Shown here: positions 277 through 25,567 of the stretch, in pieces
Layout: each line of letters begins with the position of its first letter
How positions within the stretch are numbered: position 1 is the first letter of the stretch
The notes under the pieces: generated by a model
Seen by the model: only the letters and a program-made list of their open reading frames with translations
Databases searched by the model: none
Told to the model about the DNA's origin: nothing
Position numbers and translations under genes: made by a program
Virus record (IMG/VR): IMGVR_UViG_3300017917_001341
Span: 1-25,567 of that record
Strand: one strand, 5' to 3'
Length of the DNA: 25,567 nt
From: a virus

Positions 277-278
277 CA

Positions 279-1834: not shown

Positions 1835-1845
1835 GAAATATCGGT

Positions 1846-5251: not shown

Positions 5252-5276
5252 CAACGACCTAAATACCCTTTATAAT
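5248..5276 (+). promoter_or_regulatory. consensus sigma70-type promoter upstream of folE
   Basis: TTGACA at 5248-5253 and TATAAT at 5271-5276 are separated by exactly 17 bp, a full match to the bacterial sigma70 consensus. The -35 box overlaps the stop codon of the TauD-like gene. The predicted start near 5283 leaves a leader of about 36 nt, with GGAG at 5310-5313 before ATG 5319. It would allow early transcription of folE and the genes after it by host RNA polymerase. Confidence 0.82.
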
Positions 5277-5318
5277 AGCACTAAGACTAGCCATCCTCGG
5301 CTTTAACTCGGAGAAACA

Positions 5319-6750: not shown

Positions 6751-7064
6751 CTTTTACTGGACAGAATCCATATACCACAACAACCGGTGTTACTAATACT
6801 GGATGGATTGCCGCAGGAACCACACGCTGGAACACTACCACTAGTCAGATGGAAGTGTTTGATGGCCAACAATGGACGGTGTTGGGTGCTGGCGAAGTTA
6901 AAGATGTAACTTTAGCGGACATGGTTCAATATGCCGAAGATCAAGTTGCTACACAAATTGAATTAGAATACGCAGACAATGCCACTATCCTGGATGCTTA
7001 TAAGACTTGGGAAGCGGCCAACGAAAGATTTCGAGTAATATTAGCCTTAGCGGAGAAGAAATGA
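6738..7064 (+). CDS. small protein with virion-like N-terminal motif
   Basis: The 108-residue product starts with a Thr/Gly/Asn-rich beta-like segment, and residues about 30-48 read RWNTTTSQMEVFDGQQWT, a motif often seen in phage fibre or head-decoration proteins where a short strand pair presents a W/F-D-G turn. The second half is an acidic, helical stretch ending WEAANERFRVILALAEKK. The similar ending (LQVLLALKEKK) of the protein at 18153-18485 may be chance or a shared tail. It overlaps the PIG-L gene by 13 nt, and its stop overlaps the start of the next small gene. It could be a minor structural protein, but the only support is motif resemblance. Confidence 0.55.
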   Translation: MAGLTFTGQNPYTTTTGVTNTGWIAAGTTRWNTTTSQMEVFDGQQWTVLGAGEVKDVTLADMVQYAEDQVATQIELEYADNATILDAYKTWEAANERFRVILALAEKK

Positions 7065-7246
7065 TAGCCTTAACAGCCTTGATGTGTGTCCTACTTGGAT
7101 ACCAAGTCAGCATGCCAGCAGTAGACAATGCCAAATACACTTTTACAGTTCATAAAGAACAAATTGTTCGAATGAATACACAAAATGGTTCATTTGAAGT
7201 GTGTGACGAAAAGTTAAAATGCACACCAGTTGAACCAAATAAATAG
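7061..7246 (+). CDS. small membrane-anchored or exported protein
   Basis: ATG 7061 overlaps the previous stop (ATGA) and is preferred to an in-frame start at 7007, which would sit inside the upstream gene. The 61-residue product starts with a hydrophobic segment (residues 1-18, IALTALMCVLLGYQV), then a polar tail with two cysteines (CDEKLKC) that could form a disulphide outside the cytoplasm. The N-terminus lacks a positive charge and a clear lipobox, so whether it is a signal anchor or a cleaved signal is open. No family is recognised. An AATAAATA element overlaps its stop codon. Confidence 0.6.
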   Translation: MIALTALMCVLLGYQVSMPAVDNAKYTFTVHKEQIVRMNTQNGSFEVCDEKLKCTPVEPNK

Positions 7247-7277
7247 TATTACAGCGGCCTATTCGGCGTCATCCCGC

Positions 7278-7306
7278 TTTACAAACTCTGCCGCCTATGC
7301 TAAAAT
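7278..7306 (+). promoter_or_regulatory. sigma70-type promoter with extended -10 upstream of queD
   Basis: TTTACA at 7278-7283 and TAAAAT at 7301-7306 are 17 bp apart, and TGC at 7298-7300 provides the extended -10 TGn. The predicted start near 7313 leaves a leader of only about 13 nt that still holds the AGGAG Shine-Dalgarno before ATG 7326. The remaining bases of the 7247-7325 gap show no clear terminator hairpin. Confidence 0.72.
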
Positions 7307-7325
7307 TTAACATAGGAGAAACAGC

Positions 7326-7883
7326 ATGATTCATTACAACGAAACAGAGTTGATCAAAACAATCAACGAACAGAAACAACAAAGCGTTCAACCCATCACT
7401 TACCGATTCACCAGCACCAAAGAGTATGTAGATCAATTCCCGGTAGCCTATCGTCAATGGCGTGCCGACAGTCATTGTAACTTGATTCATGGCTACGCAT
7501 TTAGCATGAAGTTTTACTTTGGCACCAACGACTTAGACGTTCGCAACTGGGCCGCAGACTACGGTGGACTCAAAGAACTCAAAGAAGTTTTACAAAGCCA
7601 GTTTGACCATACCTTACTAGTAGCACAAGATGATCCTGAATTGGAAACATACAAACTGTTAGAATCAAAAAACATGGCCAAGCTGACCATACTGCCAAGA
7701 TTAGGTTGTGAAGGTCTTGCTGACATGCTATACAAGTATGTGAATGGTGTTTACATTCCTGACTACTGGGGTCCAAGCGAAGCCGCACGTTTATGGTGCT
7801 ATCGTGTAGAAGTTCGTGAAACACAAAGCAACATGGCGTTCCGTGAAGGTCACCGTGAATGGAATGAAGATTTATTTGCTTGA
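7326..7883 (+). CDS. queD: 6-carboxytetrahydropterin synthase-like protein (QueD family)
   Basis: The 185-residue protein matches the QueD/PTPS family, which turns dihydroneopterin triphosphate into 6-carboxy-tetrahydropterin, the second step of preQ0 synthesis. Residues 49-57 (SHCNLIHGY) supply the catalytic Cys51 and the zinc ligand His55, AADYGGLK (76-83) is the family D-x-G-x-L-K segment, and FDHTLL (93-98) gives the Asp94/His95 pair; VEVRET near the end fits the substrate-binding Glu. Two of the three zinc histidines of E. coli QueD are replaced (AHR by AYR, HGH by HGY), a pattern I associate with a phage/alphaproteobacterial QueD subfamily; His50 may compensate. It has its own promoter and works with FolE and QueE in this window. 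Confidence 0.82.
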   Translation: MIHYNETELIKTINEQKQQSVQPITYRFTSTKEYVDQFPVAYRQWRADSHCNLIHGYAFSMKFYFGTNDLDVRNWAADYGGLKELKEVLQSQFDHTLLVAQDDPELETYKLLESKNMAKLTILPRLGCEGLADMLYKYVNGVYIPDYWGPSEAARLWCYRVEVRETQSNMAFREGHREWNEDLFA

Positions 7884-7960
7884 TAAACGGCGTATATAAG
7901 TATATGTCGTAGAGGGCCTAGCGGCAAATTGCTCCTACCATTTTTACTATAAAACAATCA

Positions 7961-8593
7961 ATGAAAATTTTCCTTACTGGTGCCAGCTCGGGTGTAGGCC
8001 GAGCATGTTATGATTTGCTTAAAGACCAACATCAAGTAGTTGCGCCAACCAGTCAAGAATTTAATCTAGGTCAATTTGATCAGGTGAGTTCTATAGACTT
8101 ATCTGACATAGATTGTGTTATCAATTGTGCTGGGGTAAATCCTGGCAGTTATCAAGGCTGGAAAAACAACACCTGGCAGAATCAACAAAATCAAGTTGAC
8201 GTAAATTTTACCGGGGCACTTTTTTTAATCAAGCAATATGTTTCTCAAAGAAACCAAGGGCACTTTGTTTACTTGACCAGCAACAACATTGACGATCCTA
8301 TTGCCCATAATATATTTTATACAGCTGCCAAACATGCTCTTAGATACAGTGTTCAAACCATAAGAAAAGAGTGCCCAGACATTGTTTTCACTGAGGTATG
8401 CCCAGGAAAAATAAAAACCAACATGCTCAAACAAAACTATGGAACTGCCAAATCAGCAGAAGAAATTGAGCAAATTTACAATCAAGCACCATTTTTATCT
8501 GCTGTTGAAGTGGCAAAGTGTATTGTGCATGCCATCGATCATAAAATAGATCACATCACAATTTTACCCCATAACAGTGCTCAAAATAAGTAA
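7961..8593 (+). CDS. short-chain dehydrogenase/reductase
   Basis: This is a 210-residue classical SDR with a Rossmann fold. The cofactor loop is TGASSGVG (residues 6-13), NCAG is at 55-58, and the catalytic set is Ser107 in YLTSNN, Tyr120 and Lys124 in FYTAAKHA (YxxxK), with the PGKIKT segment after it. It is somewhat shorter than typical SDRs (about 250 residues) because the specificity loop is compact. It would oxidise or reduce an alcohol or ketone using NAD(P)H; the substrate is unknown, but a second SDR at 11892 and the glycosyltransferases next door point to sugar or sugar-nucleotide chemistry. The 77-nt gap upstream contains AT-rich TATATAAGTATATG and ACTATAAAAC elements but no clear -35/-10 pair. 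Confidence 0.88.
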   Translation: MKIFLTGASSGVGRACYDLLKDQHQVVAPTSQEFNLGQFDQVSSIDLSDIDCVINCAGVNPGSYQGWKNNTWQNQQNQVDVNFTGALFLIKQYVSQRNQGHFVYLTSNNIDDPIAHNIFYTAAKHALRYSVQTIRKECPDIVFTEVCPGKIKTNMLKQNYGTAKSAEEIEQIYNQAPFLSAVEVAKCIVHAIDHKIDHITILPHNSAQNK

Positions 8594-8598
8594 CTATT

Positions 8599-9453
8599 AT
8601 GAAAAAACGTAAATTCAGTATAGCAGTTATGTTGGCAACTCATAAAAGAACAGACGCACTTAGTCGAAGTGTGTTTAGTTTGTTGGACCGCACTAGAGAT
8701 ACTTCTCAAATACAACTTATTTTTGGTATTGACAACAATGACGAAATTGGAACAAATCATTTTGTTGATGTGATACAGCCCGAGTTAGATCGCCGAGGGG
8801 TGGATTATACTGCCCTTAGTTTTGAACCAATGGGTTATTTGTGTCTTAATCAATACTATAACAAAATGTGCGAACATGCCGATGCTGATTGGTTAATGGT
8901 CTGGTGTGACGACGCTATCATGGAAACACAAGATTGGGATGATCGAGTGGTTGAATGCACAGGTGAATTCAAGTTGTTAAAAGCACACGCACACAACGAA
9001 CACCCTTACGCAGTGTTTCCTATCATACCTGCTGAATGGCACGAAATAACTGGATATTATGCCCAGCATCAGATGCTAGATGCCGAAGTCAGTCACATGG
9101 CCTACATGTTAGACGTAATGAAAATCATTGACATTACTATCACACACGATCGTGCAGACCTTACTGGCAATAACAACGACGAAACCAATCGAAAGAAAGT
9201 AATGCTAGAAGGCAATCCTAATAATCCATTGGATTTTCATCATCCAGGCATGCGTGGTCAGCGGGTAATGGACACAGAAAAAATTTCTCAATACATGAAA
9301 TCTTGCGGACTCGATACCTCGTGGTGGGAAGGTGTCAAAGCAGGCAAAAATGATCCGTTTAGTTTGATGGAAGCCAATGACCCAAATGGTCAAACTGTTA
9401 GAATGGCTTTGAAGACCGATTCACAAGGTCGCACCTATGCACAGAAAGTTTAA
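8599..9453 (+). CDS. GT-A-like glycosyltransferase, tandem copy A
   Basis: The 284-residue product starts like a family 2 glycosyltransferase, with a beta strand then ATHKRTDALSRSVFSLL (residues 13-29), IFGIDNNDE (41-49) and DADWLMVWCDDAIM (95-108), where Asp104-Asp105 stand in the DxD-like metal/nucleotide-sugar position. Further conserved stretches are HNEHPY (132-137), an IPAEWHE segment, MLDAEVSHMAYMLD, THDRADLTGN and EGNPNNPLDFHH. Every one of these recurs in the gene that begins 2 nt after its stop, so the pair arose by tandem duplication. No membrane segment is present. Its likely role is transferring a sugar from a nucleotide donor; the acceptor is unknown. There is no strong Shine-Dalgarno before ATG 8599. 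Confidence 0.72.
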   Translation: MKKRKFSIAVMLATHKRTDALSRSVFSLLDRTRDTSQIQLIFGIDNNDEIGTNHFVDVIQPELDRRGVDYTALSFEPMGYLCLNQYYNKMCEHADADWLMVWCDDAIMETQDWDDRVVECTGEFKLLKAHAHNEHPYAVFPIIPAEWHEITGYYAQHQMLDAEVSHMAYMLDVMKIIDITITHDRADLTGNNNDETNRKKVMLEGNPNNPLDFHHPGMRGQRVMDTEKISQYMKSCGLDTSWWEGVKAGKNDPFSLMEANDPNGQTVRMALKTDSQGRTYAQKV

Positions 9454-9455
9454 CA

Positions 9456-10292
9456 ATGTCTACAAAAACCTTTAGTATATCGGTTTTACTACCATCTCGT
9501 GGACGCACCGACGCACTTGAGCGCAGTGTTTCTAGTTTATTAACCTTAGCAGCTGATCCAAAAAAGATACAATTAATTTTTGGATTTGACAACGACGACG
9601 AAGTAGGATCCAACTATTTTTTAGAAAAAATGTTACCATGGTTGGACCAACAACAGGCCAACTATACTGCTTTGTCGTTTGACAGCATGGGCTACGAAGG
9701 TCTCAATCATTATTACAACAGCCTAGCAGAAAACGCTGACGCTGATTGGTTGTTTGTTTGGAACGACGACTGTATCATGAATACCGCTGGATGGGACAAC
9801 GTGATAAGACAATATGATGGAAAATTTTGTATTCAGAAAGTGCATACACACAACGAACACCCTTACAGTATTTTTCCAATAGTGCCTGCTGTGTGGGTAG
9901 AAACACTGGGACGACTTAGCCGTCATCAAATGATTGACGCTGAGATTAGCCAAATTGCTTATATGCTGGATGCAATTCAAATTGTTGACATTGATGTGAC
10001 ACATGATCGCACAGACCTAACCGGTAACCAATCCAATGAACCGCCCAAGCCCAGAGTAAGATACGAAGGCAATCCAGAAAATCCTCTGGACTTTCATCAT
10101 ATTATGACCATACAACATCGCATGGACGATACTGAAAAACTTTCTGACCTTATGAAATCTCGGGGCATGGACACTACCTTTTGGACCAATATCAAACTCA
10201 ACAAACAAGACCCATGGGAAAAACTCAAAAAGAATGATATAAATCATCATATGGTTCACTTTGACGGTCCGGAGGTAACATGTCAAATATAG
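9456..10292 (+). CDS. GT-A-like glycosyltransferase, tandem copy B
   Basis: The 278-residue paralogue of the preceding gene is collinear with it: LLPSRGRTDALERSVSSLL (11-29), IFGFDNDDEVGSNYF (41-55), DADWLFVWNDDCIM with Asp104-Asp105 (95-108), HNEHPY, IVPAVW, QMIDAEISQIAYMLD, THDRTDLTGN and EGNPENPLDFHH. The C-termini differ most, which is where acceptor specificity might have changed. A stretch of about 19 identical bases around the HNEHPY codons (near 8993 and 9851) shows that the duplication is not very old or is kept similar. The end overlaps the next gene by 13 nt, and the next gene's GGAGGT Shine-Dalgarno lies inside this coding sequence. Confidence 0.72.
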   Translation: MSTKTFSISVLLPSRGRTDALERSVSSLLTLAADPKKIQLIFGFDNDDEVGSNYFLEKMLPWLDQQQANYTALSFDSMGYEGLNHYYNSLAENADADWLFVWNDDCIMNTAGWDNVIRQYDGKFCIQKVHTHNEHPYSIFPIVPAVWVETLGRLSRHQMIDAEISQIAYMLDAIQIVDIDVTHDRTDLTGNQSNEPPKPRVRYEGNPENPLDFHHIMTIQHRMDDTEKLSDLMKSRGMDTTFWTNIKLNKQDPWEKLKKNDINHHMVHFDGPEVTCQI

Positions 10293-11491
10293 CAGTAAGC
10301 CAACTAGTTACGCATTGTTTAATTTCTGGGGAACCTGTTGAGAAAATTTTAGATTTTGGTCAACATCCCTATGCTGATACCTTTGTTTCTGATCAACAAT
10401 ATTCACTCAGTGAACCGGTTTTTCCACTACAAGTTTATATGAATTCTGATTCGGGCAGTGTTCAACTAGGCTACATCAGCGACGCATCCGAACGTTATAA
10501 TTTGTATTCGTATAGTTACACTTCTAGTAACAGCCAAACTTCAAGAGATCACTGGGACGAATTGGCCGAGTATGTTAAATCGACCTATGGCAACGACCGT
10601 TTGGTTGTTGAAGTAGGCAGCAATGATGGATATCTAATAGGTCAATTTGCCAAGGGATTAGGTATTGATAGTTCGCAAGACATGTGTGGCATTGCCATGG
10701 AGCGAGGTATTAATACTCTCAATGCCTTGTTTGATGTAATGGTAGCTGACCATGTGCGCGAAACCCATGGACCTGCTAACGCAGTGTTGGCCAACAATGT
10801 GTTCAACCATGCCAACGATCCTGTGGGCTTTGCCATAGCAGTTTCCAAACTGTTAGATGACACAGGCGTGTTTATATTTGAAGTTCCTTATTGGGGATGG
10901 ATGGTTACCAATGGTAAATTCCCCGACATGGTCTATCATGAGCATCCAAGTTACTTTACAGTTAAAAGTGCTCAAACATTATTAGAACGTGCTGGACTTA
11001 CTATTACGGATTTTGAACTGGTCAACTATCACGGACAGAGTTTGCGTATAACAGCTCGCAAAGGACAAGCAAGGTCAGACAAAGTAACAAAGGCCATTAG
11101 AGAAGAAACCGAACAAGGCTTGTTTAATCCTGAGTTTTATGCCAGCTTACAAGACAAATTAGTAAAAGCCAAAGTAGAATGGTTGAACAAATTTTATCAA
11201 CTGCTCAGTGACGATCCACAGGCTGTGATCATTGGAGTAGGTGCTGCTGCCAAGGCCAACACATGGTTACGATGGCACGGTCTTGACGCAACAGTAATTA
11301 AGTGTATTACAGATTCTAGTCCTTACAAGCAAGGCAAATACACTCCGTTAACACGTATTCCTATCTGCAGTGACGAAGAATTTGCCAACCATACCAATCC
11401 ATATGCACTTGTGCTAAGTTGGAACATCGGCGAACCACTACGACAAGCACTACTCGAAATCAATCCTAACACAAGGTTTATATCACAATGA
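10280..11491 (+). CDS. SAM-dependent sugar C-methyltransferase-like protein
   Basis: The 403-residue protein has the three-part layout of NDP-hexose C-methyltransferases. Residues 1-80 correspond to the putative zinc-binding domain (LDFGQHPYADTF), 108-240 to the SAM domain (VEVGSNDGY at 110-118, NNVFNHANDP, then PDMVYHEHPSYF at 215-226), and the last 150 to the C-terminal Rossmann-like domain (IIGVGAAAKANTWL). YHEHPSYF is the family's characteristic His/Glu-rich catalytic region. The N-terminal domain has only one cysteine (Cys13), where the family normally has four, so zinc is probably not bound. A GGAGGT Shine-Dalgarno lies just upstream of ATG 10280. It probably methylates C-3 of a keto-sugar nucleotide and is coupled (ATGA) to a cupin sugar isomerase-like gene. 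Confidence 0.85.
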   Translation: MSNIAVSQLVTHCLISGEPVEKILDFGQHPYADTFVSDQQYSLSEPVFPLQVYMNSDSGSVQLGYISDASERYNLYSYSYTSSNSQTSRDHWDELAEYVKSTYGNDRLVVEVGSNDGYLIGQFAKGLGIDSSQDMCGIAMERGINTLNALFDVMVADHVRETHGPANAVLANNVFNHANDPVGFAIAVSKLLDDTGVFIFEVPYWGWMVTNGKFPDMVYHEHPSYFTVKSAQTLLERAGLTITDFELVNYHGQSLRITARKGQARSDKVTKAIREETEQGLFNPEFYASLQDKLVKAKVEWLNKFYQLLSDDPQAVIIGVGAAAKANTWLRWHGLDATVIKCITDSSPYKQGKYTPLTRIPICSDEEFANHTNPYALVLSWNIGEPLRQALLEINPNTRFISQ

Positions 11492-11895
11492 AACACTACA
11501 ACATCTACAACAACACAGAACCCGGCCTAGGTAGCTTTGCTGATGATCGCGGAACTATTACAGATATCTTCCACTTGATTGATATGAACTCTGCGTGTTT
11601 GATTACCAACACACCAGGTGCTGTTCGTGCCAATCACTATCACAAGCACACAACACAGTTCACCTATATTCTGAGTGGCAGTTTAGACTACTACAGTAAA
11701 CCTGTAGACTCAGAGGAACCAGCCAATGTGATCACTGCTGGTGCTGGCGATTTTATTATTTCAGAACCAAACGAGATTCATGCCTGGCGCACAGGCCCAG
11801 AAGGTTGCACCCTTATTGCTTTTGCCAAGGGTCCACGTGGCGGAGAAGATTACGAAAACGACACGTTCCGAGTAGCCAGTATTATTCCTGAATGA
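11488..11895 (+). CDS. cupin protein, possible sugar-nucleotide isomerase
   Basis: This is a 135-residue single-domain cupin. The metal or active-site segment is RANHYHKHTTQFTYILSGSL (residues 47-66; His50, His52 and His54 in cupin motif 1), and motif 2 is around GAGDFIISEPNEIHAW. The N-terminal DDRGTITDI followed by a short strand resembles FdtA/WxcM-type dTDP-4-keto-hexose 3,4-isomerases, but also the broad polysaccharide-biosynthesis cupin group. The position directly between a sugar C-methyltransferase and an SDR, with ATGA overlaps on both sides, favours a step in modified-sugar synthesis. The exact reaction cannot be read from the sequence. Confidence 0.75.
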   Translation: MKHYNIYNNTEPGLGSFADDRGTITDIFHLIDMNSACLITNTPGAVRANHYHKHTTQFTYILSGSLDYYSKPVDSEEPANVITAGAGDFIISEPNEIHAWRTGPEGCTLIAFAKGPRGGEDYENDTFRVASIIPE

Positions 11896-12488
11896 CCCGG
11901 GTCGCTGTGATCTTTGGTGCTCGCGGTGGCATTGGAGCCGCAACACGAGAAGAATTTCTAGCAGCTGGATATCGTGTGGTTCCAGTCAACAGTCTTGGAG
12001 TTGATTTTGGTCAACCCAACTGTTACGAAAAAACCTCGGCCATTTTGTCAGTCGAGCCAGATGTCATAGTCAATTGCGTAGGGCACATTGATAAAACCAA
12101 TCTGGAAACCCATCATAAAACTCTAGATATCAATCTTGGTAGTAATTGGGCAATTTTAAGCCATTACATAAAAACCCCTCCCACCAAGCCACTAAAAATC
12201 ATCATGGTAGGATCCAGTGCTTATCGTGGCGGACGTCGAGACTATATTTTATACTCGGCCTCCAAAGCGGCACTATATAATGTGTGGCAAGGAGCATGTG
12301 ATTATTTTGGTGAAAGCGACATGGTTTCCATTGGTTTGATCAATCCTACAAGAACACGCACTCCCATGATAGACATGACTACTACAGCATTTTGTTATGA
12401 GCCCAAAGAAGTAGCACAACTAATATTAAAAATGGCATCAAGTGACACAAATCAATTGGTGGACATGAAGTATCCAGAGGAGATATAA
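11892..12488 (+). CDS. short-chain dehydrogenase/reductase
   Basis: This 198-residue SDR starts at an ATGA overlap. The cofactor loop reads GARGGIGAA (9-17), NCVG is at 61-64, the catalytic serine is within VGSSAYRGG (Ser108 or Ser109), and Tyr121/Lys125 form the YxxxK in YSASKAA. The NPTRTRTPM segment follows, as in classical SDRs. It is unlike the SDR at 7961 outside these motifs. It would reduce a keto group or oxidise an alcohol, and its place in the sugar block suggests a keto-sugar reductase. Its final TAA overlaps the ATG of the next gene (TAATG). Confidence 0.87.
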   Translation: MTRVAVIFGARGGIGAATREEFLAAGYRVVPVNSLGVDFGQPNCYEKTSAILSVEPDVIVNCVGHIDKTNLETHHKTLDINLGSNWAILSHYIKTPPTKPLKIIMVGSSAYRGGRRDYILYSASKAALYNVWQGACDYFGESDMVSIGLINPTRTRTPMIDMTTTAFCYEPKEVAQLILKMASSDTNQLVDMKYPEEI

Positions 12489-13261
12489 TGAAAATTGGTA
12501 TTATCGGTAAAGGCACTGTAGGTAAAGCAGTTTATGAAGGCCTAAATCATATGGGTCATCAAATGAGTTTTTTTGATCCTGCGTATGAAGGATCTCAATT
12601 AAAAGACGTGTTGGACACAGACGTGGTATTTCTTTCTGTGCCTACCAATCAAGCATCAAATGGTGATTGCGACACCAGTATTGTAGAAAAGGTTGTTGAA
12701 GAACTAAATCAAGCCGAATACAAAGGACTTGTTGGACTCAAGAGCACTTGTGTTCCTGGCACTTGTGATCGATTATCCAAACAGTATCCTGCCTTGCGCA
12801 TTTGTAGTGTGCCAGAATTCCTACGTGCCAAAACAGCACTAGCCGACTTTATGTATAATCATGACTTGTTGGTCATTGGTAGCGACCGTGTAGAAGATTT
12901 TGAAACAATCAAACGTATCCATGGTCACTTGCCAAAAAACGTTGCCTGTGTTAAACCTACCGAAGCAGAAGTAATCAAATACTTCAACAATGTGAATCAT
13001 TCAGTGCAGATTATATTTGCCAACATTGCCTATGAAGTATGTAAGAAGTTGGGTGTTCACTATGATGCGGTATATCATGCCATCAGCAAGCGTGAATGTT
13101 TCAATCCAGCTTACTTGATGTGTAACGAAAACCTACGTGGCTTTGGTGGTCATTGCTTGCCCAAAGACACCAGCGCCTGGCGCAATCTTGTTCGAGATCT
13201 AGGCTTGCCATACGAAATGATTGATGCTGTAATCAAAGACAATGAAAAGATTAACAAATGA
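12488..13261 (+). CDS. UDP-glucose/GDP-mannose dehydrogenase-like, C-terminal domain absent
   Basis: The 257-residue protein matches the first two domains of nucleotide-sugar 6-dehydrogenases. GKGTVG at 7-12 is the NAD loop, VFLSVPT at 47-53, STCVPGT at 86-92, PEFLRAKTALAD at 109-120, the Lys164 region EAEVIKYFNNV, and the catalytic Cys223 in GFGGHCLPKDT. Normal members have 390-450 residues, with a C-terminal UDP-binding domain that is missing here. The stop is followed directly (ATGA) by a healthy epimerase gene, so truncation is not obviously recent decay. It could act on UDP-sugar with altered binding, or oxidise another substrate. GAGGAG precedes the start. Confidence 0.82.
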   Translation: MKIGIIGKGTVGKAVYEGLNHMGHQMSFFDPAYEGSQLKDVLDTDVVFLSVPTNQASNGDCDTSIVEKVVEELNQAEYKGLVGLKSTCVPGTCDRLSKQYPALRICSVPEFLRAKTALADFMYNHDLLVIGSDRVEDFETIKRIHGHLPKNVACVKPTEAEVIKYFNNVNHSVQIIFANIAYEVCKKLGVHYDAVYHAISKRECFNPAYLMCNENLRGFGGHCLPKDTSAWRNLVRDLGLPYEMIDAVIKDNEKINK

Positions 13262-14148
13262 GTAAAATACTAGTAACAGGAGCCAGCGGACTATTAGGCA
13301 CAGAGTTTTGCCGTCAACTCAAAGCAGCCGGACACGAAGTCTGGGCACTAGACAATCACAGTAGGTCATCGTCGATTCCAGACTGCAATCAATTTGTCAG
13401 CGCAGATCTACAGGTAGCATTGGTCTATGAAACCTTGCCCAAGGACTTTGATTACATTTATCACTACGGTGCTATCAACGGCACAACTAATTTTTATGAA
13501 CGTCCAAATGAAGTTTTGAAAACAAATTTTGTCAGCGACTTAAATATATTTGAATTTGCTAGTCAATGCCCTAATTTAAAACGCCTTGTGTATGCTAGTT
13601 CAAGCGAAATTGTTAGTGACGATCCCGCAAGTCCAGTTCCTGAGAATTTAGACATTATGATCAAGAACATTCACAATGCTCGTTGGAGTTATCGTTTGGC
13701 CAAAGTTACCAGTGAAAACTATCTAGCCAATAGCAACTTGCCTTATGTTATGTTGCGTTACTTTAATGTGTATGGCGAGAACTCAAAGAAAGGTCACTTC
13801 CTAGGTGACCAAATCGACAAGATCCGTAATGGTGTGTTCACTGTAATCGGCTCACAAGAAACTCGTAGCTTCTGCCATGTGTCGGATGCTATCCGTGCCA
13901 GTATCTATGTGGCCGAAAACGTCAATCGTGAATTGGTCAACATTGGTAACGATCGCGAAATATCAATTGGTGATGCTGTTAAGGTTATCGCTGATGTAAT
14001 GGGACATCCAGATGCTGTGTTTGAACAGTTACCAAGCAAAGCTGGTAGTGTAGCTAACCGTCGTCCAGATATTACCAAATTGCGTAGTATCATGCCCGAC
14101 TACGAACCAATGAGTTTTGAACAAGGAATTAGATCAATTCTTGCTTGA
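13258..14148 (+). CDS. NAD-dependent epimerase/dehydratase (extended SDR)
   Basis: The 296-residue extended SDR has TGASGLLG (7-14) for NAD binding, YASSSEIV (112-119) with the catalytic Ser, and Tyr145/Lys149 in WSYRLAKVTSE, then LRYFNVYG (166-173) and RSFCHVSDA, the usual sugar-nucleotide contact segments. Length and motifs fit UDP-glucuronate decarboxylases, dTDP-glucose 4,6-dehydratases and UDP-glucose 4-epimerases; sequence alone does not separate these. Directly after a UDP-sugar dehydrogenase-like gene, a UDP-glucuronate-processing role is the simplest idea. It is the last gene of the coupled run from 10280; the promoter for the next gene overlaps its stop. Confidence 0.87.
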   Translation: MSKILVTGASGLLGTEFCRQLKAAGHEVWALDNHSRSSSIPDCNQFVSADLQVALVYETLPKDFDYIYHYGAINGTTNFYERPNEVLKTNFVSDLNIFEFASQCPNLKRLVYASSSEIVSDDPASPVPENLDIMIKNIHNARWSYRLAKVTSENYLANSNLPYVMLRYFNVYGENSKKGHFLGDQIDKIRNGVFTVIGSQETRSFCHVSDAIRASIYVAENVNRELVNIGNDREISIGDAVKVIADVMGHPDAVFEQLPSKAGSVANRRPDITKLRSIMPDYEPMSFEQGIRSILA

Positions 14149-14173
14149 CAATCCAAATACAGTCGTGTAAAAT
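14145..14173 (+). promoter_or_regulatory. sigma70-type promoter immediately before the phosphoribosyltransferase gene
   Basis: TTGACA at 14145-14150 and TAAAAT at 14168-14173 are 17 bp apart. The -35 box overlaps the TGA stop of the epimerase gene (14146-14148). The -10 ends only 6 nt before ATG 14180, so the expected transcription start falls on or next to the start codon, which would give a leaderless mRNA. Confidence 0.68.
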
Positions 14174-14179
14174 AACTGT

Positions 14180-14710
14180 ATGAAGAAAATCTATTATACC
14201 TGGTCTGACGTTGAATCTCAAACACAAGAGATCCTGCGTCAGATTTCCTTATCCGATTGGCGACCAGACTATGTTGTAGGCCTAACACGTGGCGGATTGA
14301 CGCCAGCTAATTTGATTAGTCAATACTTAGAAGTTCCTATGGAATGTCTTAAAGTAAGCCTACGTGATACTAGCACAACCGAAAGCAATACCTGGATGGC
14401 TCAGGATGCGTTTGGTGGCTATACCGATGCTGATAATCCTAAACGCTACATACACAAGAACATTCTTATTGTTGACGATATCAATGATTCAGGTGCTACC
14501 CTAAACTGGATCATGCAGGACTGGCCACAAGGTTGTCATCCCGACAACGTGCTATGGTCAAACATTTGGAACAACAATGTTCGATTTGCTGTATTAGTTA
14601 ATAATGCGGCCAGTGAGTTCAAACGTATAGATTATTCAGCTGTAGATATTGACAAGGCCGAAGAGCCTAGTTGGATTGTGTTTCCATGGGAGGACTGGTG
14701 GAAGAAATAG
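14180..14710 (+). CDS. purine-type phosphoribosyltransferase
   Basis: The 176-residue type I phosphoribosyltransferase has VVGLTRGGLTPANLI (32-46) as the PPi-loop region and ILIVDDINDSGATL (95-108) as the PRPP-binding motif, with the C-terminal PSWIVFPWEDWW typical of Gpt/Hpt-like purine enzymes. It would salvage a purine base (or an analogue) to its nucleotide using PRPP. In a phage with FolE/QueD/QueE, use of a deazapurine base is conceivable but speculative. No Shine-Dalgarno precedes ATG 14180, and the promoter lies so close that the message may be leaderless; the native-looking MKKIYYTW start argues against a later start. It overlaps the FkbM gene. Confidence 0.88.
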   Translation: MKKIYYTWSDVESQTQEILRQISLSDWRPDYVVGLTRGGLTPANLISQYLEVPMECLKVSLRDTSTTESNTWMAQDAFGGYTDADNPKRYIHKNILIVDDINDSGATLNWIMQDWPQGCHPDNVLWSNIWNNNVRFAVLVNNAASEFKRIDYSAVDIDKAEEPSWIVFPWEDWWKK

Positions 14711-15402
14711 TTAACACCATATTCGGACCAATGGCTGTGATACCCACTGATGCCAAGATCGGAGCCGAGCTTAAAAGCAAAGGTTGTTGGGACCTGGTAG
14801 AAATAGTTGAAAGCATTCAACTGTTTGAACGCTATACACAAAATCCAAAAACTATATTGGATGTAGGATGTAATGTTGGAGCATGGACCTTGCCCATTGC
14901 TCGTCGCTATCCCAACGCAAAAATATTGGCCTTTGACTGTCAAGAATACGTGATCCGTTGTCTAAATAAAACCATCGACTTGAACCAGATCGAAAACGTT
15001 CAAGCCTATGTAATGGCCATTGGCAATGAAGATAAAGTTATTAAGTTTGGATCAATTGATTATACGTTTGGTGGAAACTTTGGTGCGTTTGAACTGGAAC
15101 CGCCGGCACAGAATCCTGACTTTAATGGTCGTGCCTTGCCCGGTCGCTATGATGAACTTGATCAGCGCACTATAGATCGTTTGGAATTAGATGATGTAGG
15201 TTTAATCAAGATTGACGTAGAAGGCATGGAACTCAAAGTTATTCAAGGTGCATTGAATACTTTACAACGCTGTCGCAGTGTGGTGTTGTTTGAAAATCAC
15301 AAGTGTGATTATTCTGCTGTGGTCGACTTGCTGAGCACTATTGGATACCAAGTAATTGGCACCATTGGGCAGATGTCGTTTGCTGTAAGTCAACGTGATT
15401 AG
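14686..15402 (+). CDS. FkbM-family methyltransferase
   Basis: The SAM-dependent methyltransferase core is clear: ILDVGCNVGAWTLPIAR (motif I), ILAFDCQE after the next strand, and LIKIDVEGMELKVIQGA, the FkbM hallmark near the C-terminus. FkbM enzymes mostly O-methylate sugars or polyketides. I place the start at ATG 14686, giving 238 residues with 25 nt of overlap with the phosphoribosyltransferase gene. GTG 14698, with GGGAGG at 14688-14693 just upstream, is an equally good start and would give 234 residues. It belongs to the glycan-modification block, and its stop overlaps the next gene by 8 nt. Confidence 0.82.
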   Translation: MGGLVEEIVNTIFGPMAVIPTDAKIGAELKSKGCWDLVEIVESIQLFERYTQNPKTILDVGCNVGAWTLPIARRYPNAKILAFDCQEYVIRCLNKTIDLNQIENVQAYVMAIGNEDKVIKFGSIDYTFGGNFGAFELEPPAQNPDFNGRALPGRYDELDQRTIDRLELDDVGLIKIDVEGMELKVIQGALNTLQRCRSVVLFENHKCDYSAVVDLLSTIGYQVIGTIGQMSFAVSQRD

Positions 15403-16342
15403 TTCAAAACTTCCAGCAGGTTCGCAACGTGGGCAAGTGGATAATTTTATTATCAACACAGTTTGCCAACAACTAAACGACGATTATATTTTTATAGATA
15501 CCAGTTGGTTGTCTGTGTTGGATCTACAGTCATTGGATCCTAACAAAATTGCTGTTTGTTACTCGGGAGTTGACTGGGATAGCAGATACTGTATTCAAGA
15601 GCGCAGAGACGCACACAACATAATACAAAATCAAACTAGAGATCAAATTTACATTGGCAACACCAATGGTCAATATTATTTTAACTACTGGGCCGAATTT
15701 ATAAGACAGAATCCTCAATACTTTTTTGATCGCCGATATTTGGAAAGCCCACGCATAACCAAAAAGTTCATGTGCTTGAACAGAAAAGCTCATGCACACA
15801 GAAAGTTTTTTGTTGACCTTTTAATACAACACAACTTGATTGATCAAGGAATAGTAAGTCAATTTACAAACAACATTGGACAACTACTGGATCCGGACAT
15901 ATCAAAACTCATGCGCAAGGATTCGGAACTCAACACAGTAATACCCAACGACATCTACAGTCTAGGCGACCCTGATGTATGGTCCGAGCATTTTGTCAAT
16001 GTTGTTACAGAAACAACCACACATACCAATGTATTTTTAAGTGAAAAAACTTGGAAACCAATAATAGGTCTAAGACCTTTTGTGATACTGGGCGACTATC
16101 AAGCAGTTTACAAGTTAAAGGAACTGGGGTTTGATACCTTTGATGATGTATTTGGGCACTGGTATATTAACCCAGACTGGCAAATTCGTGCCCGATGCAT
16201 TGTAGATATTTTAAAAAACTTGCCTGCGGATCTAAATACAGTGTATCAGCAACTCTTGCCAAGGCTTGAAAAAAACCGTGAAACATTTATAAACTACATG
16301 GATCAGAATCATAAAAAAATTTCTAATTTAGGAATAAGATGA
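15395..16342 (+). CDS. glycosyltransferase-like protein, copy 2 of a paralogous pair
   Basis: This 315-residue protein begins with GTG at 15395, overlapping the FkbM stop. It shares the ordered motifs of the protein at 279: C-L-N-R-(x)4-H-R at 127-136, and VVTETTTHTNVFLSEKTW at 203-220, followed by PFVILGDY, a leucine-rich spacer and FDTFDDVFG. The two copies differ in the N-terminal half, which is probably the acceptor side. The motifs resemble the donor-binding end of fucosyltransferase-like enzymes, but no biochemical function is established by sequence here. No signal peptide is visible. The stop overlaps the next gene (ATGA). Confidence 0.5.
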   Translation: MISSKLPAGSQRGQVDNFIINTVCQQLNDDYIFIDTSWLSVLDLQSLDPNKIAVCYSGVDWDSRYCIQERRDAHNIIQNQTRDQIYIGNTNGQYYFNYWAEFIRQNPQYFFDRRYLESPRITKKFMCLNRKAHAHRKFFVDLLIQHNLIDQGIVSQFTNNIGQLLDPDISKLMRKDSELNTVIPNDIYSLGDPDVWSEHFVNVVTETTTHTNVFLSEKTWKPIIGLRPFVILGDYQAVYKLKELGFDTFDDVFGHWYINPDWQIRARCIVDILKNLPADLNTVYQQLLPRLEKNRETFINYMDQNHKKISNLGIR

Positions 16343-17067
16343 AATCGCAAACAAGATTACTAGTATCTGGATGCAGTTTCACTGACTACCCGTATGCTAC
16401 CTGGGCAGATTTTTTATTTCGAGAAGGGCATTGGGATGTCTATGAAAATTTTGCTTCGCCCGGAGCAGACAATGCTTTTATCGCAAGAAATATTGTAGAC
16501 CATGCTCGAACCGGAGATACTGTGGTTGTGCTTTGGTCTGGGTTTGATCGGTGGTCTAGATGGTCAGAAAAACCCAGTCATGATTTTAGAAGCCAAGCAT
16601 GTAATTGGATCAGAGGCGGCAGTGTTCGAGATCTCAAATCATACATGGTTCACTACTACCATCCAGTGGAAAGATTCCAAACCACAATGGACTACATATC
16701 CATGGTTGATTTACATCGGCAACTCAATGGCTATACTGTGTATCATTTTAGTGCTTTTCCATTTTTTCTTGGTGAAGTAGAAACCCAAGTTCATCCCGAA
16801 ATTATGAACATATTTTCTCGTTATAATTTTCCAAATAATTTTGTAACCGATCTAAGTTTATATGACTATATGGTTCAAAACAAGCAGGAAATGAAAACTG
16901 AACACCAATACAACAAAAATGATTCACATCCTACCCCATTGACACACTGGGAATATTGTAGTAAAATTATAGCACCACGAATGAATCTTACCTTGAACAA
17001 AACCACCAAAGAGCAAATGATGGAAATTCAAAACGACTTAATCAACAACGGAATAGCAAGAAAATGA
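16339..17067 (+). CDS. SGNH/GDSL-like hydrolase protein 1
   Basis: The 242-residue product opens with a strand and SGCSFTD (10-16), with Ser13 in the SGNH nucleophile position, has an SPGADNAFIAR block (40-50) resembling block II/III, and ends its core with NDSHPTPLTH (194-203), supplying Asp195 and His197 for the DxxH-like block V. SGNH proteins are esterases, acetyltransferase partners or lipases; phages often carry small SGNH-like proteins of unknown role. No signal sequence is seen. It is one of three such proteins in the window (also 20520 and 21185) and is coupled to queE by an ATGA overlap. Sugar O-deacetylation is a reasonable guess. Confidence 0.6.
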   Translation: MKSQTRLLVSGCSFTDYPYATWADFLFREGHWDVYENFASPGADNAFIARNIVDHARTGDTVVVLWSGFDRWSRWSEKPSHDFRSQACNWIRGGSVRDLKSYMVHYYHPVERFQTTMDYISMVDLHRQLNGYTVYHFSAFPFFLGEVETQVHPEIMNIFSRYNFPNNFVTDLSLYDYMVQNKQEMKTEHQYNKNDSHPTPLTHWEYCSKIIAPRMNLTLNKTTKEQMMEIQNDLINNGIARK

Positions 17068-17930
17068 AAATCAAAGTCAGCGAAGTATTTTATAGTTTAC
17101 AAGGCGAAGGTCGCTTTGTGGGTGTGCCCAGTGTGTTCTTGAGAACATACGGTTGTAACTTTACCTGTAGCGGGTTTGGTTGCAAGCCTGGAGAGAAATC
17201 CACAGGCGCAGATGAAGTGGCCAAGACAGTAGAGTTATACAAAGACTTTAACAGTTTGCCTTTGGTAGAAACAGGTTGCGACAGTTATGCATCATGGCAT
17301 CCTGCATTCAAGCATTTAAGTCCTACCCTGACCACAGAAGAATTAGTAGAACGTATGTTGGCCTTGACTCCTAACAACATGTGGGGACAGAACAACGGCA
17401 ACGATGTGCATCTTGTGATTACTGGAGGCGAACCCTTGTTGGGTTGGCAACGTGCTTATGCAGAGTTGCTGAGTCATCCGCGTATGTCAGACCTGAAGAA
17501 CATTACCTTCGAAACCAATGGCACTCAACCCTTACACGACGACTTTAAGATGTTTTTGCGTAACTGGGCATTAGATGGAATTGGTGCGCCAAGAGAAGTT
17601 ACGTTTAGTGTAAGTGCCAAGTTAAGTGCATCAGGCGAATCATGGGAAGATGCTATTTGTCCAGAGGTTGTCAACGAATATCAAAATTACGGACATACCT
17701 ATCTTAAGTTTGTTGTAGAAACCATAGAGCATGTGGACGAGGCTGTAAAGGCTGTGGATGCTTTCCGTGCAGGTGGATTCAAGGGTGTTGTTTACTTGAT
17801 GCCACAGGGTGGCGTTGTTAAACCTTACGAAGAAAACAAACTAAACATTGCCAACATCTGCTGTCAGCAAGGTTGGAATTACAGTCCACGATTGCATGTG
17901 GACTTGTGGGGCAACGGTTGGGGCAAGTAA
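17064..17930 (+). CDS. queE: 7-carboxy-7-deazaguanine synthase (QueE)
   Basis: QueE is the radical SAM enzyme converting 6-carboxytetrahydropterin to 7-carboxy-7-deazaguanine, the third step to preQ0. The 288-residue protein has the family opening FYSLQGEGRFVGVPSVFLRT (9-28), then Cys31 and Cys35 in YGCNFTCSGFGC, VITGGEPLL near residue 119, FETNGT and FSVSAKLS. The usual CX3CX2C is interrupted: after C31-X3-C35 the third cysteine appears to be Cys72 in GCDSYASW, matching the CDTxY segment of standard QueE, so about 36 residues are inserted in the cluster loop (Cys40 is an alternative). It starts at an ATGA overlap and, with folE and queD here, supports a phage 7-deazaguanine pathway. Confidence 0.9.
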   Translation: MKIKVSEVFYSLQGEGRFVGVPSVFLRTYGCNFTCSGFGCKPGEKSTGADEVAKTVELYKDFNSLPLVETGCDSYASWHPAFKHLSPTLTTEELVERMLALTPNNMWGQNNGNDVHLVITGGEPLLGWQRAYAELLSHPRMSDLKNITFETNGTQPLHDDFKMFLRNWALDGIGAPREVTFSVSAKLSASGESWEDAICPEVVNEYQNYGHTYLKFVVETIEHVDEAVKAVDAFRAGGFKGVVYLMPQGGVVKPYEENKLNIANICCQQGWNYSPRLHVDLWGNGWGK

Positions 17931-18163
17931 TGCCGCCATTAGATAGCCTATTTGGTGCCAGGCACAGTTTTTATCAACGTGCCAAATGGCGCATGGCATT
18001 TGCTTGGTTGCCTCATCGTTGTTGTATAAGCAGTCGTATCATATGGTTACAGTTTGGTTACATAGGAGAGGCCGTATGGCATGGGCCCGGCGATGATGTT
18101 ATTGAATACAACTGGCACACCTCCACGGAACATTTGATTTGGTGTTTAAAAAATGGCAAATGA
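17930..18163 (+). CDS. conserved-looking small phage protein, function unknown
   Basis: ATG 17930 shares one base with the queE stop (TAATG) and is preferred over an earlier in-frame start at 17873 inside queE. The 77-residue product is basic and aromatic: HSFYQRAKWRMAFAWLPHRC, then SSRIIWLQFGY and AVWHGPGDDVIEYNW. It has two adjacent cysteines (Cys-Cys) but no zinc pair pattern that I can defend. I recognise the general look of small conserved proteins in large myoviruses but cannot name a family. It overlaps the next gene by 11 nt. Confidence 0.65.
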   Translation: MPPLDSLFGARHSFYQRAKWRMAFAWLPHRCCISSRIIWLQFGYIGEAVWHGPGDDVIEYNWHTSTEHLIWCLKNGK

Positions 18164-18485
18164 TGATTTACATATAGACTTGGATCCAGGAAGGCAAGCT
18201 ATTTTTGAAATCATTGTTCCTGCTGGTGGTTGGCGCAGAGTGTTTCCACAAGAGTATATACAGGAAATCCGTCCCATAGCCGAAACACTAGCTATTATGG
18301 CTGGAGTTACCATTGGAGACTACCAGTCTTTTCTTCAAGAAGCAGATGCTGTATATCGACTGCACGAAGATCAACCCGATGAGTTTTCATGGATTGAACG
18401 CAATCGTCGCATGCAAGAAGATCCAGTATGTCGAGAGCTGTGGAATAAATTACAAGTGTTATTGGCTTTGAAAGAAAAAAAATGA
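18153..18485 (+). CDS. small acidic protein, function unknown
   Basis: The 110-residue protein begins with an acidic stretch (DDLHIDLDPG), has a short hydrophobic segment (IFEIIVPAGGWRRVFPQEYI), then acidic helices, and ends RELWNKLQVLLALKEKK. The ending resembles that of the 6738 protein (ILALAEKK), though the rest does not. The start lies inside the preceding gene and its stop overlaps the next start (ATGA), so it belongs to the same coupled run as queE and the ANL gene. No catalytic motif is visible. Confidence 0.65.
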   Translation: MANDDLHIDLDPGRQAIFEIIVPAGGWRRVFPQEYIQEIRPIAETLAIMAGVTIGDYQSFLQEADAVYRLHEDQPDEFSWIERNRRMQEDPVCRELWNKLQVLLALKEKK

Positions 18486-19906
18486 CTAATGCATCGGATC
18501 TGCTGTCACTAGATTACAAATTTGTTGCCCGTGATAAAACATATAGTCTTGCGGACATTGAAAATGCCAAACAGTTTTACAAGGAAGCCTTGTTCAAAAC
18601 TCTCGATGGCAAAACTGTGGGTAAAACTGTTTATCTCTGGACCAATGAACTGTTTGCTATTGTATCGGCATTGAAAGCAAGTTGGGAACTTGGTTGCACA
18701 GTTTTTGCTGCCGACTATAATCCTTACTACAATCAAATTCCAGAATTTAAAAACTTTCATGATTTTATTGATGTGGTAATAGGGCACGGCCCAGATCATG
18801 TGAACAGTAGTCTGAGTGTTTTGCCGCACAAGCCACATATCATAATTGATGAGCTAGACCTGGGCACCAACTATGCTGTAGTTGACTATGTGCTGGATCA
18901 ACCCATTGGTCCTGATACCAATGCTGTAACTACTCATACCAGCGGAACTACAGGATTTCCTAAACTAACATATTTTACACATCAGTTGGTTATAGACATT
19001 GCCAAATCTGAAGTAGAGATGAATCGCATGGAACTCAATGACGTAGGTGGTCACGTTAAAACTCTACACCACGGAAGTTTATTTTTAAATTATGCTATAC
19101 CGTTATTGTCGATCTGCACTGAACATCATTGTTTACACAACATGTTTCATTCTATTGCGACAGAACCAGAAAAATGTCTAAGGGTATTGCTTGAGTATGT
19201 GGATAAAAATAATCTCACACGATTGATGATTCCTTACAACTGGATCAGATACATGCCAAGCATGTTGGAAAATATTGATTTAAAACAGCGAGTAACTTTA
19301 AATTCTATACTTGGACCAACTGACGCCGAAATGCAAGATATCTTTGACCGATTCAGGCCTCGTAGAATTATCAACATGTGGGGATGCAGTGAAGTTGGAT
19401 CAGTATTTCATAGTATAACCGAAGTTGACAATATAGATCAATATAATCCCAACAAATTTGAAGTAATAAATAAAGATATAGACTATGTTATTGAAAATGA
19501 CCATATTCTATTAAAGTGGAAAACTTCAAATATTTGGCACAAAATTGGAGATGTATTTAAAGTTTTTCCAGATCACTTGCTTTGGTTAGGTCGTAGTGCT
19601 ACAATAACTCTAGATGGGACGACGGTTAATGTAGGCCGAATCAAAGAATTTTTAGAAAAGCAGTATAACACTGTTCATTTTAGTATTGTAATCGATTACG
19701 AACTAAATCAACTTTATCTGGCCAAATGGGACAAATCTATTCCGTCAGACATAACAGTGTTAAACAATTTGTTAGTTGAACAATTCGGCAAAGAATACAA
19801 GTTTAGTCGTGTGAAACAATTAAACTATGCTCGAGTGCTACAAGGAATGAAACCTAGTCAACCCATATTACTATACATGTTTAGAAACGATGAACAAACA
19901 TCTTAA
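18482..19906 (+). CDS. ANL-superfamily adenylating enzyme (acyl-CoA synthetase-like)
   Basis: The 474-residue protein carries the core motifs of AMP-forming acyl-activating enzymes in order: HTSGTTGFPK (152-161, the phosphate-binding A3 loop), NMWGCSEVG (299-306, A5), IGDVFKVFPDHLLWLGR (355-371, the A7 Asp/Arg region), LDGTTVNVGRIKEFL (A8), and a C-terminal lysine candidate near 457 in LQGMK. It therefore looks complete. Such enzymes activate a carboxylate (fatty, aryl or amino acid) as acyl-AMP and pass it to CoA, a carrier protein or another acceptor. Neither a carrier protein nor a condensation domain is nearby. It is unusual in a phage and overlaps its neighbours by ATGA at the start and 17 nt at the end. 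Confidence 0.88.
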   Translation: MTNASDLLSLDYKFVARDKTYSLADIENAKQFYKEALFKTLDGKTVGKTVYLWTNELFAIVSALKASWELGCTVFAADYNPYYNQIPEFKNFHDFIDVVIGHGPDHVNSSLSVLPHKPHIIIDELDLGTNYAVVDYVLDQPIGPDTNAVTTHTSGTTGFPKLTYFTHQLVIDIAKSEVEMNRMELNDVGGHVKTLHHGSLFLNYAIPLLSICTEHHCLHNMFHSIATEPEKCLRVLLEYVDKNNLTRLMIPYNWIRYMPSMLENIDLKQRVTLNSILGPTDAEMQDIFDRFRPRRIINMWGCSEVGSVFHSITEVDNIDQYNPNKFEVINKDIDYVIENDHILLKWKTSNIWHKIGDVFKVFPDHLLWLGRSATITLDGTTVNVGRIKEFLEKQYNTVHFSIVIDYELNQLYLAKWDKSIPSDITVLNNLLVEQFGKEYKFSRVKQLNYARVLQGMKPSQPILLYMFRNDEQTS

Positions 19907-20138
19907 AGAAAGTCAAACAACTTACTGGCCTCATTTCAAATGGGCTGTTGTAGCTGGATTCAGATTGATCTATGCCGGCATCTCCAGTTTGATTCATGCT
20001 ATTCATCCATCACTTTTTCCAGGCACCGCTGCCAAGACTGTGATTGATCTGTATCATCGTCGTTTGGAAAACCATCCTAATACACAGTATCAGGAAATTA
20101 TCAAAGAAGCAAAGGAAAAGAACAATGGGAATGTTTGA
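19890..20138 (+). CDS. DUF6356-like small membrane-associated protein
   Basis: The 82-residue product has the pattern I associate with DUF6356: a Y-(x)2-H-(x)3-A start (TTYWPHFKWAVVAGFRLIYAG), SLIHAIHPSLFPGTAAK in the middle, then a hydrophilic LYHRRLENH. Residues about 17-45 are hydrophobic enough for a helix or hairpin in the membrane. The family occurs in phages and in bacterial surface-polysaccharide regions, and its function is not established. ATG 19890 overlaps the ANL gene by 17 nt and the next gene overlaps its end by 14 nt. Confidence 0.7.
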   Translation: MNKHLKESQTTYWPHFKWAVVAGFRLIYAGISSLIHAIHPSLFPGTAAKTVIDLYHRRLENHPNTQYQEIIKEAKEKNNGNV

Positions 20139-24403: not shown

Positions 24404-24772
24404 GTGCGCGACAAAAAGAAACTCACCGAAGAATTAATTCAACATCTTCCTGATCCGTTTAAGATCTCAGCCGAAGAAGCCATGCCTATGTGGTGGTATA
24501 ATCTTAGGGCCAGTGGAGGCATGCGCTTGACCAAGATAGGATACGAAACATTTACCAAGATTCTCGAGTTGGAACACTACAATTACAATGTAGAACCGTT
24601 TGCTATAAACAGCAGAATGATTGTTGCTCTAGATCGTAAACTACAACATCCTTGGTTTATTGTGACCCACAAAATGATGCCAAAAACTCTGGTATTCTTT
24701 GGCAGTAAAGAAGCCATGATGGCCAACTTGTATGGCGATCTAAAGAAGTTTCTTGACAACTATACTCATTAG
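24404..24772 (+). CDS. phage protein of unknown function
   Basis: The start is GTG 24404, one base after the preceding TGA; ATG 24402 is in another frame. The 122-residue product has a helical N-terminus (KKLTEELIQHLPDPFKISAEEA), PMWWYNLRASGGMRLTKIGYETF in the middle, then LDRKLQHPWFIVTHKMMPKTLVFFGSKEAMM and a helical end. The M-x-L-T-K-x-G segment looks like a helix-turn-helix-type or conserved small-protein motif, but that is weak. The -35 box of the tRNA promoter lies inside its last codons. Confidence 0.72.
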   Translation: MRDKKKLTEELIQHLPDPFKISAEEAMPMWWYNLRASGGMRLTKIGYETFTKILELEHYNYNVEPFAINSRMIVALDRKLQHPWFIVTHKMMPKTLVFFGSKEAMMANLYGDLKKFLDNYTH

Positions 24773-24790: not shown

Positions 24791-24867
24791 GGGCCTTTAG
24801 CTCAGTTGGTTAGAGCAAACGACTCATAATCGTTGGGTCGATGGTTCAAGTCCATCAAGGCCCACCA
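24791..24867 (+). tRNA. tRNA-Ile2 (CAT anticodon, probable lysidine) or tRNA-Met
   Basis: A complete cloverleaf with encoded CCA: acceptor GGGCCTT/AAGGCCC, D-stem GCTC/GAGC, anticodon stem AACGA/TCGTT, loop CTCATAA with anticodon CAT at 24825-24827, T-stem GATGG/CCATC with loop TTCAAGT. A CAT anticodon means elongator Met, or Ile if C34 is converted to lysidine by host TilS. The second and third G plus C4-C5 of the acceptor give pairs C4-G69 and C5-G68, the determinants by which TilS is reported to tell tRNA-Ile2 from tRNA-Met, and the CGACTCATAATCG arm resembles E. coli tRNA-Ile2. Ile2 is therefore favoured. It would decode AUA, which the window's genes use often. Confidence 0.85.
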
Positions 24868-25083: not shown

Positions 25084-25332
25084 ATGACTATTTACACTTT
25101 AATGGTATGGGGACGCGAGTTATCATCTACTGAGCTCGACGCACTTAATACTCAAATCGCAGCCGATGTAGCAGCAGGGCAAACCGATGGAAATTTAGAA
25201 TTTGTACCATATGGCGATGCAGAATCTGCAGCACAACGCGATTGGACCACCACCGAATATGCTCAAGGATGGCTTGACTTCTGTAATACTTTTAGTCCAC
25301 CACCAACTACTGCTATAATTGAAACTGTTTAA
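25084..25332 (+). CDS. small acidic protein of unknown function
   Basis: The 82-residue product has an AAAAAGGA Shine-Dalgarno at a good distance before ATG 25084. It reads MTIYTLMVWGRELSSTELDALNTQIAADVAAG, an acidic helical middle, then TTEYAQGWLDFCNTFSPPPTTA. It is Ala/Asp/Thr-rich and could be a small structural or regulatory protein; no motif is identified. The TGCTATAAT element of the tmRNA promoter lies within its last codons, so its coding sequence and the RNA gene's promoter overlap. Confidence 0.7.
   Translation: MTIYTLMVWGRELSSTELDALNTQIAADVAAGQTDGNLEFVPYGDAESAAQRDWTTTEYAQGWLDFCNTFSPPPTTAIIETV
25311..25319 (+). promoter_or_regulatory. extended -10 promoter for the tmRNA
   Basis: TGCTATAAT at 25311-25319 is a full extended -10 box, and TTTAGT lies 17 bp upstream (25291-25296) as a weak -35. 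Transcription would begin near 25326, about 19 nt before the acceptor half of the tmRNA and inside the end of the preceding gene. Confidence 0.6.
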
Positions 25333-25344: not shown

Positions 25345-25409
25345 ATTGTTGTAATTCCTTCGTAGTGAAGGCACTGTGGACGAGGGTTCGATTCCCTCCA
25401 GCTCCACCA
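25345..25409 (+). ncRNA. ssrA: permuted tmRNA, acceptor piece (3' half with CCA)
   Basis: The T-arm is GAGGG (25382-25386), loop TTCGATT and CCCTC (25394-25398), followed by CAGCTCC (25399-25405) and ACCA ending at 25409. CAGCTCC pairs with GGGGCTG at 25463-25469, including the G-U pair that is the alanyl identity mark of tmRNA. Upstream, GTTGT (25348-25352), TTCGT (25359-25363) and CACTGT (25372-25377) pair with GCAAC, GCGAA and ATGGTG of the coding piece, building the long P2 helix. Because this half precedes the 5' half in the DNA, the gene is circularly permuted, as in two-piece tmRNAs. The exact 5' end is not determined; 25345 is an estimate from the start of the helix. Confidence 0.88.
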
Positions 25410-25462
25410 AAAAGGCACTACACCCCTCTTGACAATGGGCAACCTTGTAGTGCGTTTCTGAT
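25410..25462 (+). other. intervening segment of the permuted tmRNA
   Basis: These 53 nt lie between the CCA of the acceptor piece and the first G of the coding piece. GCACTACA (25415-25422) pairs with TGTAGTGC (25446-25453) in an 8-bp stem with a 23-nt loop that can pair further (TTG/CAA, CCC/GGG). In known permuted tmRNAs this stretch is cut out by tRNA-processing enzymes, leaving two separate RNAs. Confidence 0.75.
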
Positions 25463-25567
25463 GGGGCTGACCGGTTTCGACATGGTGAGATAGCGAAAGA
25501 GGCAACACGGTAGGCGATGACCGTAAATCAAGCAAATCTCGTAAATGCAAAAGCATCTACTGGCGAA
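25463..25567 (+). ncRNA. ssrA: permuted tmRNA, coding piece (5' half, truncated by window edge)
   Basis: The piece starts GGGGCTGACCGGTTTCGAC, the tmRNA 5' end with the TTCGAC D-loop-like signature. ATGGTG (25482-25487), GCGAA (25493-25497) and GCAAC (25502-25506) pair with the acceptor piece. ACGGT (25507-25511) and ACCGT (25520-25524) form a short stem, probably part of pseudoknot 1. After CTCGTAAAT, GCA at 25547-25549 is the likely resume codon, and the tag would begin A-K-A-S-T-G-E before the window ends. It pairs with the upstream acceptor piece to make a complete rescue RNA that uses SmpB and releases stalled ribosomes. Later pseudoknots and the tag end lie beyond 25567. Confidence 0.87.

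Follow-up and report, generated by a model that had tools for sequence, protein, structure and literature searches.

The window analysed here is the whole of an IMG/VR virus record of 25,567 bases (IMGVR_UViG_3300017917_001341), and positions 25347 to 25567 form a circularly permuted (two-piece) tmRNA gene that is cut by the end of the contig. The 3′ tRNA-like half lies upstream of the 5′ half, which is the permuted order. The features of the locus are as follows.

24404–24772, + strand: gene for a 122-aa protein that marks the phage clade carrying the tmRNA, with 40 viral relatives
24791–24867, + strand: tRNA-Met (CAT), found by ARAGORN and RF00005; relatives show the same order
25084–25332, + strand: ORF of 82 aa, ending 14 nt before the tmRNA; no family match
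25347–25409, + strand: acceptor (3′) piece of the tmRNA, with a P2 strand, the T arm (25382–25398), the acceptor strand CAGCTCC (25399–25405), the discriminator A (25406) and CCA (25407–25409); from RF04321 and RF01850 alignments, with acceptor and T-stem pairs that covary in relatives
25410–25462, + strand: intervening segment of exactly 53 nt, a hairpin (fold −15.2 kcal/mol, z −2.05)
25463–25567, + strand: coding (5′) piece, cut by the contig end, with the acceptor strand GGGGCTG, a P2 strand, the first pseudoknot region and the start of the tag; from the sequence and Rfam alignments
25547–25567, + strand: first seven tag codons, GCA AAA GCA TCT ACT GGC GAA, encoding AKASTGE; from the sequence

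The coding piece starts GGGGCTGACCGGTTTCGAC at 25463, and its GGGGCTG (25463–25469) pairs with CAGCTCC (25399–25405) at all seven positions, including the G3:U70 wobble. The original prediction proposed a covariance search, and this gives 120 bits with the Rfam model tmRNA_permuted RF04321 (cut-off 47, E 2.9e-23) and 114.6 bits with beta_tmRNA RF01850 (cut-off 84, E 1.6e-34), the latter alignment being cut at its 3′ end. RF01850 is the best clan model for this gene, matches of the same clan scoring lower. Scores over the cut-offs rule out chance similarity as the source of the signal. The predicted layout of a CCA-ending half, a 53-nt hairpin and a coding half is thus borne out in all its parts by sequence, fold and Rfam, and the predicted 7-bp acceptor stem with a G–U pair is further supported by covariation in relatives. 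The intervening segment, the length of which differs between relatives, is expected to be cut out during tRNA-type processing, and the 82-aa ORF is possibly co-transcribed with the tmRNA. ARAGORN calls no tmRNA in the window, and the truncation of the gene is the presumed cause.

The last 21 bases of the window, GCAAAAGCATCTACTGGCGAA, read AKASTGE; the contig then ends, so that the stop codon and the remaining pseudoknots lie beyond it. The same 21 bases, letter for letter, open the tag of the relative L094, which in full is AKASTGEVTVSGKNIKFRTLAAKGQSLAV. This identity places the window gene in the long-tag type on the seven codons seen, and its tag would be completed as in the relatives. The long tag was beyond the reach of the original prediction.

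The closest matches of the 5′–3′ exonuclease encoded in the window are in jumbo phages such as PA5oct, and GTP cyclohydrolase, QueE-like and MazG-like genes are also present. Positions 1–20000 hold a long run of sugar- and methyl-transferase-like, radical SAM, TauD-type and AMP-ligase-like genes, together with FolE and QueE, and within this stretch a pair of neighbouring ORFs (284 aa at 8599–9453, 278 aa at 9456–10292) looks like a tandem duplication. The 122-aa protein has no match among the cultured phages of INPHARED, nor in PHROGs or Pfam; its gene lies upstream of the tmRNA, in the same orientation, at 64 of the 74 long-tag loci, several of which share a contig. Several relatives that carry this gene sit on contigs, between 182 and 340 kb long, that also encode a T4-type gp23 capsid protein. 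The one gp23 compared has its nearest counterparts, at ~65%, in Vibrio phage 2.275.O, Phosso and PA5oct. A bacterial chromosome or bacterial contamination as the source was considered and is ruled out by the IMG/VR record, gp23 on related contigs, the permuted tmRNA in related viral records and the synteny with the 122-aa gene.

Downstream of the 122-aa gene and tRNA-Met, the relatives carry a complete permuted tmRNA with its tag, stop codon and downstream stems. A permuted tmRNA scores over the Rfam cut-off in every one of the 50 related records tested, of which 48 have the exact core of the long tag, one (L075) a variant of it and one (L073) a short tag. The prediction of a permuted tmRNA in a phage therefore stands on the Rfam matches, the viral record, the complete copies in relatives and the gp23 contigs. 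The tags of the relatives are either short (ANDEQFALAA, ANASNDETFALAA) or long, at 28–29 residues, in proportions that mean little since part of the sample was found through the long tag. In a tree built from the 122-aa protein alone, a short one, and without a formal test, the short tag falls in three separate places (L042; L063, L068 and L071; L073 and L077) amid long-tag relatives. Such scatter suggests that tag segments have been exchanged or repeatedly replaced.

How well defined is the long tag? It has the core GEVTV[ST]GKN[VI]KF, ends LAV or FAV where LAA is usual, and is about three times as long as tags usually are. Searched with a degenerate DNA pattern for GEVTV-x-GKN, 60 viral contigs give a match, and the 74 loci yield 32 distinct full tags, every one of 28 or 29 residues and ending LAV or FAV. 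The reading frame is conserved: the length difference found in three loci is one codon, in frame, and in core codons 6–17 there are nine synonymous against four nonsynonymous changes (26% synonymous expected, p 0.0015), which is moderate evidence given the few sites and the related lineages. The dominance of synonymous changes in the core indicates that the tag is probably translated. In the relatives a hairpin is predicted with the stop codon in its loop. Where TTC GCA replaces TTA GCA at the tag end, the downstream strand differs too, which preserves a stem.

No tmRNA in the 84,980 bacterial and archaeal genomes searched contains the core motif, a result that speaks against the motif itself in these genomes but leaves room for a strongly diverged host tag. 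Matches to the pattern in these genomes, 23 in number, were rejected as tmRNA tags, their reading frames showing other proteins. The motif is likewise absent from 50,697 phage records, and tblastn of the 29-aa tag against INPHARED gives nothing at E up to 10. No mention of the long tag was found in the literature searched, the coverage of which is partial. On these sequence comparisons the long tag looks like a new, phage-specific variant.

The tRNA-like half is highly variable. Ten acceptor-strand combinations occur in the relatives, from GGGGATG/CATCTCC to GGGCCAT/ATGGTCC, and among 29 distinct forms the T stem and acceptor stem covary, with 71 double-change cells against 22.1 in shuffles. 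Since a full acceptor stem was the basis for choosing the rows, the figure of 100% paired is partly a product of selection; L075 is mismatched as parsed, L135 is unparsed and the alignment omits L083. G3:U70 is invariant, in 29 of 29 distinct forms. Many copies have ACCG, ACCT or AAAA in place of ACCA. In L052 and L054 the acceptor piece reads CTCCAAAA and the CCA is not encoded, while T loops without TTCGA (GGCGGAG, GGCAGAG, TGCAACT) occur in L058, L070, L095, L097 and L107, with the T stem kept. Given the odd T loops, the missing encoded CCA and the acceptor mismatch of L075, not every copy need be functional. With G3:U70 fixed while acceptor stems, T loops and CCA vary, these phages provide a natural mutational scan of what a tmRNA needs.

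We read the locus as a beta-type permuted tmRNA of a clade of jumbo T4-like myophages, serving ribosome rescue in dependence on host SmpB and adding a phage-specific tag, and we put the probability of this reading at about 0.85. Host tRNA-processing enzymes would split the precursor into an acceptor RNA and a coding RNA, which would stay joined through pairing in the acceptor stem and P2. Host AlaRS would charge the tmRNA by way of G3:U70, and host SmpB would deliver it to stalled ribosomes. A search of 14 related viral records, the largest of 340 kb and each of them perhaps incomplete, found neither SmpB nor SspB, and on the SmpB result we assume that the tmRNA would depend on the host protein. 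The ribosome would then resume at GCA and add the tag of 28–29 residues, ending LAV or FAV and not the usual LAA. Expression, processing, charging and rescue are predicted steps, and the role originally proposed, ribosome rescue during infection, is plausible.

What would become of the tagged proteins? ClpX recognises LAA ends, and changes there slow degradation. Most likely the tagged proteins would still be degraded by ClpXP or ClpAP, whether encoded by host or phage. An alternative, which we consider rather unlikely, is that the phage tmRNA diverts tagged proteins, which as poor substrates of host ClpXP might be spared or handed to a phage Clp. The LAV or FAV end, a length about three times that usual, and a core motif found in no bacterial tmRNA searched would all fit such a role, as would the Clp protease genes on the two largest of the 14 related viral contigs. 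A 340-kb contig with the long tag carries ClpP, one copy scoring 309 bits against a ClpP-family cut-off of 249, together with a ClpA-like protein. A 337-kb contig carries ClpP as well, and a ClpX of 507 bits (cut-off 359). The ClpA-like proteins score 784 and 802 bits, under the ClpA-model cut-off of 993, and a long AAA_2 match of ClpA-like size is found in five of seven records. However, the tag of the 337-kb contig is the short one ending LAA, so that Clp genes do not track the long tag, and ClpX and ClpP also occur in other jumbo phages. The ClpA-like, ClpX and ClpP genes of the related 337–340 kb phages lie at 88–2361 of L176, 1204–2403 of L179 and 1462–2052 of L169, and each of these phages has a second ClpP-like gene.

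It is improbable that the RNA acts as a decoy, inhibiting host tmRNA/SmpB and rescuing no ribosomes. By analogy this would have a precedent in phage DS6A, for which a tag-less form of tmRNA is reported to inhibit host tmRNA/SmpB (PMC11915505), and the unusual T loops or lack of an encoded CCA in some copies would be compatible with it; yet the frame of the tag, its stop codon and G3:U70 are all conserved, and a decoy would have no need of a conserved tag. A fragment of a host tmRNA left by an integrating phage, or bacterial contamination, is very improbable indeed, for while integration at tmRNA genes is common (PMC9004378, PMC11915505), the sequence is an IMG/VR record, the gene has a fixed position beside tRNA-Met and a gene of viral contigs, relatives have complete genes on gp23 contigs, and the tag motif occurs in no tmRNA of the searched genomes.

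It is possible, if only as a tentative proposal, that this clade of giant phages has swapped the usual proteolysis tag for a conserved 29-residue tag of its own, giving tagged proteins a fate of the phage's choosing during infection. If so, that fate might be slower or phage-Clp-specific degradation, or another use. The occurrence of the tag so far on phage contigs only, its conservation in 60 of them, its length and its C-terminus make the question of why phages carry tmRNA testable, as the fate of a reporter protein bearing the long tag should in principle be measurable.

Permuted tmRNA in a phage is not new in itself, having been published for Melnitz and others. Methylophilales phage Melnitz has a two-piece tmRNA on a myophage genome, and 53 two-piece tmRNAs were present in a 2021 phage collection, mostly aquatic (PMC9004378). 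The tmRNA database lists 79 phage sequences (PMC11915505), and huge phages with both tmRNA and SmpB have been described (PMC7162821). The standard form (RF00023) is not found at cut-off in six cultured jumbo phages. The window gene resembles the RNAs of RF01850 and RF04321 in gene order, in the acceptor stem with G3:U70, and in the T arm, P2 and the resume codon GCA. It shares with Melnitz a circularly permuted tmRNA on a myophage genome, but the Melnitz gene is alpha-type and accompanied by a predicted glutamine riboswitch, whereas that of the window is beta-type, has the 29-residue type of tag and belongs to another phage group.

Two further phages provide close comparisons. Pseudomonas phage SM1 (Samunavirus) also has a beta-type permuted tmRNA (118.6 bits), but its tag is ANDTSFDVRLAA and the phage is of 93 kb. 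The gene lies at ~1471–1891 of L161 (KU245542.1 52566–55635), where no feature is annotated, and five more Pseudomonas phage records match the SM1 acceptor half. Sinorhizobium phage Phosso (469 kb) is similar in its capsid protein (65.5%) and in having a permuted tmRNA (113 bits), and differs in that the gene is alpha-type with a span of 603 nt. The Phosso tmRNA (PV764938.1:349596–350198, L190) is unannotated and is missed by ARAGORN. These comparisons bear on the suggestion in the original prediction that the gene points to the host lineage. The beta model is best for the window gene, and the alpha-type gene of Phosso agrees with its alphaproteobacterial host; however, SM1, a phage of Pseudomonas, has a beta-type gene, and in Melnitz the gene is alpha-type while the host is not an alphaproteobacterium (PMC9004378). 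With these two mismatches the pointer to the host is a weak one. The other permuted phage tmRNAs compared mostly have tags of 10–14 residues ending LAA, whereas those of the present clade have 28–29 residues and end LAV or FAV.
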